A stretch of 61,601 nt of DNA. It comes from Oscillatoria salina IIICB1. Its GTDB lineage: Bacteria > Cyanobacteriota > Cyanobacteriia > Cyanobacteriales > SIO1D9. The DNA lies in NCBI RefSeq assembly GCF_020144665.1, contig NZ_JAAHBQ010000030.1, positions 1-61,601 on the forward strand, read 5' to 3'. Position 1 is the first letter of the stretch. Each line of letters begins with the position of its first letter. Made by a program: the position numbers and the translations under genes. Positions 89-30,195 of this stretch are shown one piece after another. Below the pieces are notes generated by a model, which saw only the letters and a program-made list of their open reading frames with translations, was not told the DNA's origin and ran no database searches.

Positions 89-2131
89 TTAGCGGACAGA
101 AGCGATCGCGTCTTTGGTCATGGCAGCGATCGCGCGATCGGTGGCTTTGGGTAAATGATAGTATTTACCTCCGGCTTGTTTTGCCAATTCTTTCGCAAAG
201 CCCGTAGACACGAACTTATTTTCGGTGTCGATGACTAACATTTGCATTCCTAAAGCCCGAATTCTCGCCGCAATGTCTAACAATTCTCCTTTGATATCCG
301 GTTTCTCTCCTTCTGGGAGCGTGTCAACATCGCCGAGAGAACGAGCTAAGGGAATATTACCGCGTCCATCAGTAATCGCGACAATGACAACTTGACCGAT
401 ATCTCCCGACATTTGAGCATTTGTCCCGACGTGAACTGCACTGGAAAGTCCGTGTGCGAGAGGTGAACCGCCTCCACAAGGCATTTTTTCCAAACGCGAT
501 CGCGCCATTGTAATCGAACGAGTTGGAGGTAACAAAACTTCCGCTTGTTCCCCCCGAAAGGGAATTAACGCCACCATGTCGCGATTTTCGTAAGCTTCGG
601 TAAGTAAGCGCAAAACAGCGCCTTTGGCTGACTGCATCCGATTTAACGCCATCGAACCCGAAGCATCCACCACAAAGATAATCAACGCCCCGGCTTTTCT
701 GGCTAGGCGTTTTGAGCGAATATCACCCGTTTCCACAATCACCTGGCGATTTGGATAACGCTGACGACGTGCTTTCTGATAAGGTGCAGCCGCGCGTAAC
801 GTAGCATCCACGGCGATTCGGCGTACTTTGCCTTTCGGTAACATCGGCTTCACGTAACGTCCCCGATCTTCCGAGAAAATAATGCTGCGACTGCCTGATT
901 TTCCTTGGCGTTTCGCCATTTGCGCGAAATACAACACGCTGGGATCGAGAATTACCCCTTCCGAATCAAAGACAAATTCTTCAGGAATTCCCGGCGGTTC
1001 TTGTTCCGGCTCCTCATTATTTTCCTCTTCTTGCTCGTCTTGTTCTTGTTCAGACTCATTTTGAGGTTCTTCCTCTTGGGGAGGCGGTGGTGGCGGCGGT
1101 GGCGGCTCCTCTGGAGGCGTTTCGATGAGGGTGGAGCGCGGCACGATTACCAATTCTACTGCTCTGCGTAAATCTTCCGCGTTAACGCTGTTGCGTCCTT
1201 CTAAAGCTGCGGCTGCTTTCGCTACTCGCACCGCAAATAATTCAGCCCGATGTCCTTGTACGCCACCACGAATGGCTTCTTGGACTAAATAGCTAATTTG
1301 TTCTCGGTTAATTTGGACATCTTTGAGCCATTCTCTAGCTAAGATAATTTGGGTTCTCAGGTCGTCAATTTCTTCATCATACTTGCGGAGGAAGTCTTGA
1401 GCCGAGGTAGCAAATTCGATCGCTTGCGTCACTGCTTGGACTCGCCGATCTAAAGATAAAATGCCATCAGCCGAGAGGGTAATAGCAATTCTGTCGAGTA
1501 AATGTTCTCGCAGGGGACCTTCTTCGGGGTTGTAGGTAGCGATAAGTAAAGGTTTGCAGGGATGTTCGATGCTAATCCCTTCTCTTTCAATACGGTTGCG
1601 TCCCTCGGTAAGTACAGTTAGCAATTGATTGGCGATTTGGTCGTCGAGGAGGTTAATTTCATCGACATACAAAACGCCTCGATGGGCTTGGGCTAACAAT
1701 CCTGGTTGAAAGACCGATTCGCCTTGTTGAACCGATTTTTCGACATCTACGGAACCTAAAAGTCGGTCTTCGGTGACTCCGAGGGGTACTTGGACGAAAG
1801 GGGCGGGAATAATTTCCGTGGAGTAAGTTGGTGGTTCGGTAGTAGCGCTAGAACCATTTTGCGTACCATCTCTTGACAACTGCGCCCTTTCCTGTTCCCA
1901 TTCTGCCACCGAACAGTTAAAAGGCGACTCACAGACAACTTCAATCGGCGGTAACAAAGAATGGATCGCCCGCGCCATTACTGATTTTGCCGTACCGCGA
2001 CGACCAGCGATCGCTACTCCTCCCAATCCGGGATCGATTGCGGCTAACAACAAAGCGAGTTTGATCGCTTCTTGTCCCACTACAGCCGTCAGGGGAAAAC
2101 TTGGTTTGGCAGTCAATGTATTTGCAGGCAT
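89..2131 (-). CDS. chlD: Magnesium chelatase subunit D (ChlD)
   Basis: ChlD is the platform subunit of the ChlI-ChlD-ChlH complex that inserts Mg2+ into protoporphyrin IX, the first committed step of chlorophyll synthesis in the cytosol. The N-terminal AAA+ domain carries GRRGTAKS (about residues 43-50) and a Walker B-like VDEINLL. Next comes the typical acidic, proline-rich linker with a run of nine or so prolines, then a C-terminal von Willebrand A domain with the MIDAS motif DASGS near residue 489. About 680 aa is normal for the family. An upstream GTG at 2143 would add four residues; I prefer the ATG at 2131. It is transcribed towards the left edge, with a terminator-like hairpin after it. 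Confidence 0.96.
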
Positions 2132-2429
2132 AGGATTTCGCACTTAGCACCTCAGCTTTCTCAGCTTACCAAAGTTTGTGGTGCGCGCGATCGCCCGCTT
2201 CCTCTCGGCAATCTTCATCAAAACTTCATCAAACTAGTCTTTATTTTAAGTTAATTTATATAGTTGTTTGGGTAAATCAGCAAATTTACTGACAAAAATC
2301 TGTAAATAGAAAATTTTTTGTGTATTTAATATCTAATTAATAAGCTGTACTTATCTCAAAAAAACGATCTAGGTAAGCAGCAATCAGCTTGTAATTCAGC
2401 ATTTACCTCGTTTTCGGAGTTCAATATCT

Positions 2430-3341
2430 ATGAGTGTATTTCGCACAGCCAAAAACTTAGTCCAGTTTTCGGTAACTGTCACTGGTTTAACTCTCTTAGG
2501 ACTAGCAATCTCTGAGTCGGCTCGGGCAGCTAGTTTCACCGTGGGCGGTTATACTTGGGACGAAGCTAATACCGTCACTACCGCAGAAGTAGTTGAAGGT
2601 GATTTAGCTTTTGACCTCGGTTTCCGAACTGCATTTAATCCTGGATCTAGCTTCGATCCTAGTAAAAGTATCGGTCAATTGTTAGGATTTGAATCTGGTG
2701 GTCCGAGTGCTACTTCTGTACCCTTTCCTGACTCGAATAGCACTGAAGCATTACCAAATGTTGACCGCGCAACCATCGAACTAAGTTGGGGAGGACTACT
2801 GTTACCTAACTTCGATGGCGAAGATTTTGTCATTTATGAAGCTGGTAGCGCTACTTCTCCAGAAGGTTTTAGTGTCTCAGTATTTAACACTTTAACTAAT
2901 GAATGGACGAACAAACGTTACGAATTTTTCGATAGTTTCGATCAACCAAATGGCGTTCTCGCGACAGCTTTCGACTTCGATGATTTTGGCTTGGATAGCG
3001 ATGCGTTAATTTCCGCTATTCGCATTACTAATTTGTTTAACTCGGAAGCTGCTAATGGTGCAGATAAAGTTGACGATCCTTCCGGAGAAGGTAATGTTTT
3101 ATTTGCTGGAGATGCGGGTTATGAAGATGGTTTTGCCTTGCTAAATACAGCAAATGGAAGCGAATATCCTACGGGTTCTTTGGATACAGATTTGGTTTAC
3201 TTAGCAGGTTTACACGATATAATTTCTTCTGAACCAACTGACCCCACTGACCCCACACCAGTTCCCGAACCAACTTCTGTTTTGAGTTTACTCGCTTTTG
3301 GTTTGGTTAGTGTTAGTTCATTTTGGCAGCGTAAAAAGTGA
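2430..3341 (+). CDS. PEP-CTERM sorting-domain exported protein
   Basis: This is a secreted protein with an N-terminal signal peptide (hydrophobic core about residues 13-30, cleavage probably near ARA-AS). The C-terminal sorting tag has VPEPTS, a hydrophobic stretch and a basic QRKK end. PEP-CTERM tags are recognised by exosortase, which processes proteins at the membrane on their way to the surface or extracellular matrix. The body between them (about 230 aa) is rich in Asp, Ser and Gly and shows no domain I recognise. A TDPTDPTP linker precedes the tag. The ATG at 2430 has a GGAG 11 bases upstream. The roughly 290 bp between chlD and this gene are AT-rich and hold nothing else I can identify. 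Confidence 0.85.
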   Translation: MSVFRTAKNLVQFSVTVTGLTLLGLAISESARAASFTVGGYTWDEANTVTTAEVVEGDLAFDLGFRTAFNPGSSFDPSKSIGQLLGFESGGPSATSVPFPDSNSTEALPNVDRATIELSWGGLLLPNFDGEDFVIYEAGSATSPEGFSVSVFNTLTNEWTNKRYEFFDSFDQPNGVLATAFDFDDFGLDSDALISAIRITNLFNSEAANGADKVDDPSGEGNVLFAGDAGYEDGFALLNTANGSEYPTGSLDTDLVYLAGLHDIISSEPTDPTDPTPVPEPTSVLSLLAFGLVSVSSFWQRKK

Positions 3342-6856: not shown

Positions 6857-6937
6857 TAGTACAGTTCGTAGTTGGGTTTTAGCGTTGATTTTTTTAGGAG
6901 TGAAATAAATTGAATATTTTTCGGTTTTTTCTGGGAT

Positions 6938-7197
6938 GAAAGAGCGCTAAAGCGCTTACTACGAACGCTGATTTTTGGGGAAATTTCCCGGTTTTTTAGG
7001 AGTGAAATGAAAGAGCGCTAAAGCGCTTACTACGAGCGCTGATTTTTTGGGAAATTTCCCGGTTTTTTAGGAGTGAAATGAAAGAGCGCTAAAGCGCTTA
7101 CTACGAGCGCTGATTTTTTGGGAAATTTCCCGGTTTTTTAGGAGTGAAATGAAAGAGCGCTAAAGCGCTCACTACGAACGCTGATTTTCGGGAAATA
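6938..7197. repeat. 71-bp tandem repeat array, about 3.7 copies
   Basis: Units begin (GAAAGAGCGC) at 6938, 7009, 7080 and 7151, an exact 71-bp period with very few substitutions. Each full unit contains the palindrome AGCGCT-AA-AGCGCT followed by ACTACGA, and a second perfect palindrome GGGAAATTTCCC (6978-6989, 7049-7060, 7120-7131). The last copy degenerates after GGGAAAT. A partial ancestral flank (TTTTTTTAGGAGTGAAAT) also occurs at about 6888-6908. No coding sequence is included. Confidence 0.9.
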
Positions 7198-10324: not shown

Positions 10325-10496
10325 TTCGTAGTGAGGACTTTAGTCCTCTCTTCAACTAGCCAAATAACGCCGTAGAAAACCCTTCGTACTCAGGAGTTTA
10401 GTCCCCTCTTCAACTAGCCAAATAACGCCGTAGAAAACCGTTCGTAGTGAGGAGTTTAGTCCTCTCTTCAACTAGCCAAATAACGCCGTAGAAAAC
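10325..10496. repeat. 58-bp tandem repeat that includes a gene's 3' end
   Basis: Three units start with TTCGTA at 10325, 10383 and 10441 (exact 58-bp period). Each has GTAG (or a variant), the hairpin GAGGACT-TT-AGTCCTC or a close variant, then about 29 bp that are the last nine or so codons and stop of the minus-strand gene at 10468. The third unit runs into the real gene end; the two outer units are non-coding copies lying downstream of its stop. Confidence 0.9.
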
Positions 10497-29001: not shown

Positions 29002-29033
29002 TTAGTAGTAAATTATCTAATAATTTATAGTTA

Positions 29034-29802
29034 GTAGTGAGCGCTAAAGCGCTCTCCTAAAGCGAAATAAAGAAGCGTTAAAGCCCTAAGTACGAACATT
29101 CATTTTCCTCCTCTTTCGGTTGTTGTTTTTTCTTTTCTATCGCCGCAATAAAAGTTAGTAGTGAGCGCTGAAGCGCTCTCTTAATCAAAGCCAATAGTCA
29201 ACAAAATTAGGCAATTTTGTCCCCAATTATAAGGCGGACAAATAGATGAATTTTCTCTAACTTTTTCCTCAGCCCTAAAGCGAAAGAAAGAAGCGCTAAA
29301 GCGCTAACTACGAACATTAATTTTCCTCCTCTTTTTCTGATTCTTTTTTCTTTTCTATCGCCGCAATAAAAGTTAGTAGTGAGTGCTGAAGCGCTCTCTT
29401 AATCAAAGCCAATAGTCAATAAATCAGGCAATTTTCTCCCCAATTATAAGGCGGACAAATAGATGAATTTTCTCTAACTTTTTCCTCAGCCCTAAAGCGA
29501 AAGAAAGAAGCGCTAAAGCGCTAACTACGAACATTAATTTTCCTCCTCTTTTTCTGATTCTTTTTTCTTTTCTATCGCCGCAATAAAAGTTAGTAGTGAG
29601 CGCTGAAGCGCTCTCTTAATCAAAGCCAATAGTCAACAAATCAGGCAATTTTCTCCCCAATTATAAGGCGGACAAATAGATGAATTTTCTCTAACTTTTT
29701 CCTCAGCCCTAGAGCGAAAGAAAGAAGCGCTAAAGCGCTAACTACGAACATTCATTTTCCTCCTCTTTTTCTGATTCTTTTTTCTTTTCTATCGCCGCAA
29801 TA
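29034..29802. repeat. 217-bp tandem array carrying paired hairpins and a copied gene 3' end
   Basis: Equivalent points (TTTTCCTCC) fall at 29103, 29321, 29538 and 29755, giving periods of 218, 217 and 217 bp. Each unit has a plus-oriented hairpin (GTAG then GAGCGCT-GA-AGCGCTC, first at 29158-29178), about 115 bp of AT-rich spacer, a minus-oriented hairpin (AGCGCT-AA-AGCGCT then CTAC, 29292-29311), and a copy of the last 16-20 codons of the DUF6887 gene. The final copy is the true gene end. A lone plus-oriented hairpin (29034-29054) precedes the array. Confidence 0.92.
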
Positions 29803-30005
29803 CGTTCGCGAATTGCTGTTTCCATAATTTGGATATTTTCCGGAATTGGTTCGCCTTCAGGAGTGCAAGGTGGCGGATAAAAAGTTGCTTCTGAGTCGGG
29901 AGTGCGACGACTGTATAAAACTCGCAAAGGTTCTAAATCTTCTCGATGTGTAAGTGCATATTGGATAAGTTCTTTGTTAGTCATTTTTTCAAATTTCGGT
30001 TGCAT
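29742..30005 (-). CDS. DUF6887 family small protein
   Basis: An 87-aa protein matching DUF6887 (MTNKELIQYALTHREDLEPLRVLY near the start, RRTPDSEATFYPPPCTPEG in the middle). The C-terminus is a highly charged helix (IEKKKESEKEEE). It pairs with the overlapping DUF6888 ORF upstream, the usual partner order in cyanobacteria as I recall; the pair's function is unknown. The last codons and the TAG stop (NECS-stop) come from the repeat flank CTACGAACATTC, so the C-terminus was shaped by the repeat. Three non-coding copies of its 3' end lie downstream. Confidence 0.8.
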   Translation of the reverse strand: MQPKFEKMTNKELIQYALTHREDLEPLRVLYSRRTPDSEATFYPPPCTPEGEPIPENIQIMETAIRERIAAIEKKKESEKEEENECS

Positions 30006-30195
30006 CTAAAAACCTCCAAAGTCCATTAGGATAAACAGTAATTTGTAGTTCTTCACCTGCAAAAATAAATATCACTCTTGTTTGCTCGTCAAATCTGAAT
30101 AGTTGAATGTCTCGATAACCATTAGACAACATCTGGCAAACTCTGACGCAGGCTTGTGCTTGTTCGTCGGTGGGATTAATAGCTAATTCCTCAAT
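29989..30195 (-). CDS. DUF6888-like ORF without a conventional start codon
   Basis: The frame reads NPTDEQAQACVRVCQMLSNG, then FDEQTRVIFIFAGEELQI and PNGLWRFLDATEI, an excellent match to DUF6888 (about 65 aa). It overlaps the DUF6887 start by 17 bp. No ATG, GTG or TTG lies in frame between the upstream stop (30214-30216) and the conserved region; the first in-frame ATG (30135) would remove the first third. Either a rare ATT start (30195) is used or a small mutation has destroyed the start and the gene is decaying. Confidence 0.6.
   Translation of the reverse strand: MEELAINPTDEQAQACVRVCQMLSNGYRDIQLFRFDEQTRVIFIFAGEELQITVYPNGLWRFLDATEI

Follow-up and report, generated by a model that had tools for sequence, protein, structure and literature searches.

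How does the coding end of a gene come to be repeated several times over in the DNA that follows it? The question is raised by a locus in the window examined here, a stretch of 61,601 nucleotides from the cyanobacterium Oscillatoria salina IIICB1 (contig NZ_JAAHBQ010000030.1 of assembly GCF_020144665.1), in which a minus-strand gene of the DUF6887 family is followed by tandem units of 217 or 218 bp that combine the gene's last codons with two inverted palindromes. The palindromes are repetitive extragenic palindromic (REP) elements headed by GTAG, paired with their heads outward as in bacterial interspersed mosaic elements (BIMEs) or REPINs (REP doublets forming hairpins). It is very probable that a BIME at the 3' end of the gene underwent local tandem duplication in which the tail of the gene was included, with later unequal exchange or slippage among the units.

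Structure of the array

Tandem Repeats Finder (TRF) scored the array at 29056-29802, with a period of 217, 3.4 copies, 96% matches and a score of 1359, far above chance. Its true extent is 29029-29802, the left end lying at 29029/29030, with a REP head at 29030, and not at 29034. Four GCCGCAATA joints, ending at 29150, 29368, 29585 and 29802, divide it into four minus-strand units: U1 (29586-29802, 217 bp), U2 (29369-29585, 217 bp), U3 (29151-29368, 218 bp) and U4 (29029-29150, 122 bp), the last being a distal partial copy from which about 94 bp of linker is missing. On the minus strand the order begins within DUF6887 at TATTGCGGCG and runs through the last codons to a REP head, GTTCGTAG, then through a linker to an inverted REP whose plus-strand head is GTTAGTAG. 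The tail in U1 is the gene's own 3' end, comprising 19 codons and the stop TAG; U2 and U3 carry copied tails of 16 codons ended by TAA, three codons ahead of the U1 stop. Since the U1 tail belongs to the gene itself, the extra copies amount to two full units and one partial unit. An earlier note on this DNA had described three tandem units of 218, 217 and 217 bp, each with two inverted BIME-like hairpins, the gene's last 16-20 codons and an identical junction, and this anatomy is borne out in every full unit, the refinement being the fourth copy and the revised left end.

The outward-headed inverted pair of U1 is made up of the gene-adjoining REP at 29726-29749 (-), which provides the stop codon, and a REP at 29589-29612 (+), and there are equivalents in U2 and U3. 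Pattern matching places the further REPs at 29372-29395 (+), 29509-29532 (-) and 29292-29315 (-), whilst the outermost REP (29030-29053 (+)) forms the left edge of the array and that of the next unit lies at 29154-29177 (+). Each consists of GTTNGTAGT followed by a stem of the AGCGCTNNAGCGCT type, the head in this array also being written GTTNGTAG, and a GTAG 5' of a short palindrome is what defines a GTAG REP. Of two hairpins folded as DNA, one gave a z of -2.58 and the other only -0.97.

Ahead of the REP head U1, U2 and U3 share 52-53 of 53 positions, and beyond it 160-161 of 164. The figures for U4 against these three are 46-47 of 53 and 62-63 of 69, its tail reading KKKQQPKEEENECS.. and its inner REP head being changed to GTTCGTAC. 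The distal copy is thus the most diverged, a pattern that fits the stepwise amplification previously proposed; that it is also the oldest, as was suggested at the same time, can at most be inferred from this.

Origin of the repeated tail

The DUF6887 gene (29742-30005 (-), 87 aa; PF21826, 63.4 bits) ends in TGT TCG TAG, and as both the last codon TCG and the stop TAG lie inside the REP head, the stop is supplied by the REP. GTAG termini have been reported often to provide a TAG stop to flanking open reading frames (ORFs) (PMC3733652). The effect on DUF6887 looks small, the REP giving the stop and the downstream copies falling after the reading frame has ended.

One explanation for such an arrangement is that the C-terminus of the gene was displaced by the insertion of a dispersed mobile unit already bearing the tail. 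The mobility of REP elements in general, the position of the TCG codon and TAG stop within a REP head and the variable C-termini of the DUF6887 family would all suit an insertion of this kind. It is nevertheless very unlikely. The full unit with its linker was not found elsewhere in the O. salina genome or in 99 relatives, with at most six candidates scored per genome in the relatives; outside the locus the O. salina genome yielded only matches of 23-61 bp, at REP palindromes, and most of the matches in the relatives were likewise REP-sized and situated at REPs. Furthermore, of six orthologues that were aligned, out of 20 rows from other genomes, three continue past the joint in a similar manner: the window has RERIAAIEKKKESE where relative G036 has KQRIQEIENKKKQA and G002 has KQKIAKYEEKQKEK, with G017 agreeing more briefly, and past the joint the protein reads ..AIRERIAAIEKKKESE in the window and ..AIKQRIQEIENKKKQA in G036. 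Most simply, then, the tail would be the gene's own DNA. As the searched sequences contain no second instance of the full unit, the most satisfactory reading is a local tandem duplication. The earlier note had also held that the amplified piece includes coding DNA, which the presence of the gene's own tail in the unit upholds, and that the unit should not prove to be an ordinary dispersed repeat to which the gene end was fused, which stands within the limits of these searches.

The REP family and its transposase

The REPs of the array belong to a family that is abundant in this genome. The pattern GTTNGTAGTNNGNNNTNNAGNNCT has 138 exact genomic sites (78+60) and its reversed control none, and among 100 genomes from the order, that of O. 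salina being counted, 29 have matches to it. A candidate agent for its movement is a REP-associated tyrosine transposase (RAYT), a 198-aa Y1 transposase encoded at C106:212-808 (NF047646, 99.0 bits against a cut-off of 80), the gene for which is enclosed by GTTAGTAG...CTACGAAC palindrome pairs and thus by the same kind of REP. In the sequence around it (L079, G000:C106, 1-1020) the RAYT gene lies amid repeated REP pairs and a spacer, TATCCTGGAAAAAT..., is common to both sides. A second gene of the NF047646 family is found at C1:71620 (108.4 bits). Homologues of the C106 RAYT, with closeness set by an author-chosen cut of E below 1e-38, were detected in six of the ten genomes with at least 20 REP sites as against ten of the 90 with fewer (Fisher p 0.001, kinship not corrected), four of the ten REP-rich genomes having no close homologue.

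REP arrays elsewhere in the genome

Arrays of similar construction occur at other sites. A survey of 330,572 bp of O. salina stretches, mostly picked for REP matches and with the period set at 25 bp or more, yielded 30 tandem arrays containing a REP head, which come from 25 sources; the window accounts for three of them. Their TRF periods range from 27 to 446 bp and they are composed of REPs and intervening DNA. According to mechanically called ORFs, eight lie in convergent contexts, 14 between genes in the same direction and three in divergent contexts, five not being assigned. REPs are mostly intergenic and 3' of genes, the exceptions being L075, in a CobN ORF, and L131, in a 725-aa ORF.

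Four of the 30 arrays take in part of an adjacent ORF at its 3' end, to the extent of 29, 39, 61 and 391 nt, where an ORF had to be at least 80 aa long, to overlap the array by at least 12 nt and to have at least 150 nt outside it, so that open-ended ORFs such as that of L075 are not covered and shorter overlaps, of 2 to 11 nt, exist outside the count. The 61 nt are those of the DUF6887 array (PF21826); an array in the same window (10325-10496) has the final 29 nt of an ORF of NmrA type, identified through Pfam, 39 nt of an ORF with a DoxX_2 match just over the cut-off are in L072, and 391 nt of a WGR/PARP ORF are in L068 (G000:C37:29200-35200, at 1737-3075). This last array has a 446-bp unit present three times, 99% alike, in which a REP is combined with 391 nt from the 3' end of the PARP gene. 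Two 103-aa ORFs that do not have the front part of the PARP gene are left by it. The remaining 26 arrays include, by the same criteria, no coding 3' end, and amongst relatives the proportion was one of 14 in G001 (24 nt) and none of 11 in G002, which has in addition one array that includes a 5' end.

These counts bear on a further explanation, in which the copied tails would serve as a silent store for recombination with the gene, switching its C-terminus between the variants EN*, ENECS* and QQP. The stops do differ (TAA in U2 and U3, GAA followed by TAG in U1), U4 has three different residues and long, similar units would presumably recombine readily. Against this, the tails of U1 to U3 differ at only one of 53 positions, no exchange was seen and most of the REP arrays (26 of 30) take in no coding 3' end by the criteria given above; the gene has beside it no set of distinct alternative coding cassettes, only U4 being more different. 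Such a store must be judged very unlikely, and the switching of C-termini envisaged in the earlier note finds no support in the near-identical tails.

A number of points weigh against a local duplication of the gene's own tail. The assembly is a draft of 163 contigs in which the real copy number is uncertain and may be misstated. Three of the six aligned orthologues (G001, G031 and G015) have unrelated ends, the alignment past the joint spans few residues and C-termini vary across the family. The relatives compared are from the same order only, the nearest genomes included, and with no more than six candidates scored per genome weak matches could be missed. Seven matches (six in G035 and one in G051) correspond to the purine-rich tail of the gene and not to REPs; the six stretches in G035, almost identical to one another, are copies of a single coding repeat, which looks transposase-like to judge from its ORF, and as a REP head is lacking in all seven they are read as low-complexity matches. 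Nor is every unit of the other arrays unique: in a loose comparison of the 30 arrays many pairs align through their common REPs, and strict scoring leaves some match in 242 of 435 row pairs and, in 11 of 435 that involve REP-dense arrays, alignments longer than 60 bp with 79-89% identity. Finally, the ORFs behind the inclusion count are mechanical, four genes having been checked by Pfam, with DoxX_2 marginal.

Array edges and the formation of the array

An important consideration in attempting to establish how the array was formed is where its breakpoints lie. The starting point would be the BIME at the gene's 3' end, with two outward-facing GTAG-headed REPs, one of which gives DUF6887 its stop codon. 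It would have seeded a local tandem duplication, with breakpoints at the outer REP head (29030) and inside the gene at 29802. With breakpoints at these positions 61 nt of the gene would have joined the unit, of which 53 nt precede the REP head and the rest is the head with its stop. Subsequent unequal exchange or slippage among long and similar units may have produced the three full units and the partial one, and it is quite possible that slippage or exchange was promoted by the hairpins. Both this order of events and the part assigned to the REP as cause of the duplication are put forward with corresponding reserve.

There is a hint that REP heads are preferred as array edges. For 16 of 28 untruncated O. 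salina arrays, some of which are neighbours at one locus, the outer edge lies no more than 4 nt from an outward REP head, compared with 6.63 (sd 2.09) expected at random phase, and none of 5000 trials was as high; in an earlier, overlapping set 15 of 24 arrays had an edge at a head, compared with 6.16 expected and none of 20000 trials as high. The DUF6887 array was scored as a miss since, because of the deletion in U4, the program, which takes no account of heads, had set its left edge at 29056, whereas the edge read by hand coincides with the head. The excess was not reproduced in the two other genomes, with four of 12 in G001 (3.65 expected) and four of ten in G002 (2.55 expected).

A finer version of the explanation by local duplication, not exclusive of it, is that the RAYT cuts at the REP head and the cut end is joined to a nearby host 3' end, such that one end of the unit would be fixed at the head and the other could fall anywhere within a few hundred bases. 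TnpAREP cuts single-stranded REPs at CT, and in the case of one enzyme also at CA; this leaves a 5'-phosphotyrosine as well as a 3'-OH, and in vitro the cut end can join a different 3' end (PMC8266576). That biochemistry, the edges at heads in O. salina and the presence of a RAYT flanked by the same kind of REP all favour the proposal. Its acceptance is made doubtful by the two genomes with no edge excess, by the neighbouring arrays within the 28 and by the cleavage dinucleotides, which are not consistent in the O. salina arrays (CA precedes seven of 21 outer heads compared with 33 of 229 other heads, and TA precedes the head in the DUF6887 array); preferential decay of the non-REP flank in terminal copies could also put edges at heads. 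RAYT-driven duplication is accordingly to be regarded as possible and tentative. The broader generalization, that in this lineage the RAYT/REP system duplicates adjoining host DNA in a one-ended manner, with the head as fixed end and any nearby 3' end, even an intragenic one, as the other, so that REPs seed arrays of gene 3' ends, is unlikely.

Relation to known REP clusters

The DUF6887 array is of a known kind, a tandem REP/REPIN cluster with flanking DNA, and is essentially an ordinary case of it. It resembles the tandem REPIN clusters of Pseudomonas fluorescens SBW25 (Bertels and Rainey 2011, PMC3116915), where a REPIN cluster lies beside each of three RAYT genes, but these belong to another phylum and the available text of that paper does not mention the inclusion of coding 3' ends. 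GTAG REPs are present in cyanobacteria and some lie inside ORFs, and most large GTAG clusters contain REPs or dimers that are tandemly reiterated along with a variable length of flanking DNA (2013, PMC3733652). The O. salina arrays agree with that account in having REPs and flanking DNA in tandem and a TAG stop from the GTAG head; the cyanobacterial families that it names are GTAG-15 and GTAG-16, and array edges are not discussed in the sections of the account that were available. REPtrons (PMC8266576), in which a Y1 transposase of the NF047646 family is flanked by GTAG palindromes, also have a counterpart in this genome, but the CT/CA signature of REPtrons is not consistent here and the RAYT is known from its sequence alone. 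No description of coding tails in tandem REP clusters was found in the REP/RAYT literature searched, as far as the accessible portions of those papers extend, and among the matches listed in a search on RAYT and tandem duplication none was related. REP clusters with flanking DNA are thus familiar, whilst how they form is an open matter. As it has many arrays, and in a few of them coding DNA whose original copy is clear, this genome is well suited to testing REP heads as breakpoints.

Neighbouring genes and other observations

Directly upstream of DUF6887, and overlapping its ORF, is a DUF6888 gene (29989-30132 (-), 47 aa; PF21828, 64.5 bits). A search of the literature on DUF6887 and DUF6888 found no paper, and a scan of further genome contigs for the locus returned two distant loci. 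Another REP tandem array in the window, in addition to the one at the NmrA-type ORF, lies at 6936-7196. In L075 (G000:C116:9000-15200, at 2859-3210) a 93-bp REP unit, equivalent to 31 codons, is in frame within the CobN/magnesium-chelatase ORF and gives rise to about four protein repeats of 31 residues. Lastly, in L050 (G000:C113, 7704-8327) the repeat CTTCTGACTTCTTCGGAAGTTGAATTAATGGAAAC recurs every 71-77 bp in TRF units, and this is a candidate array of clustered regularly interspaced short palindromic repeats (CRISPR).
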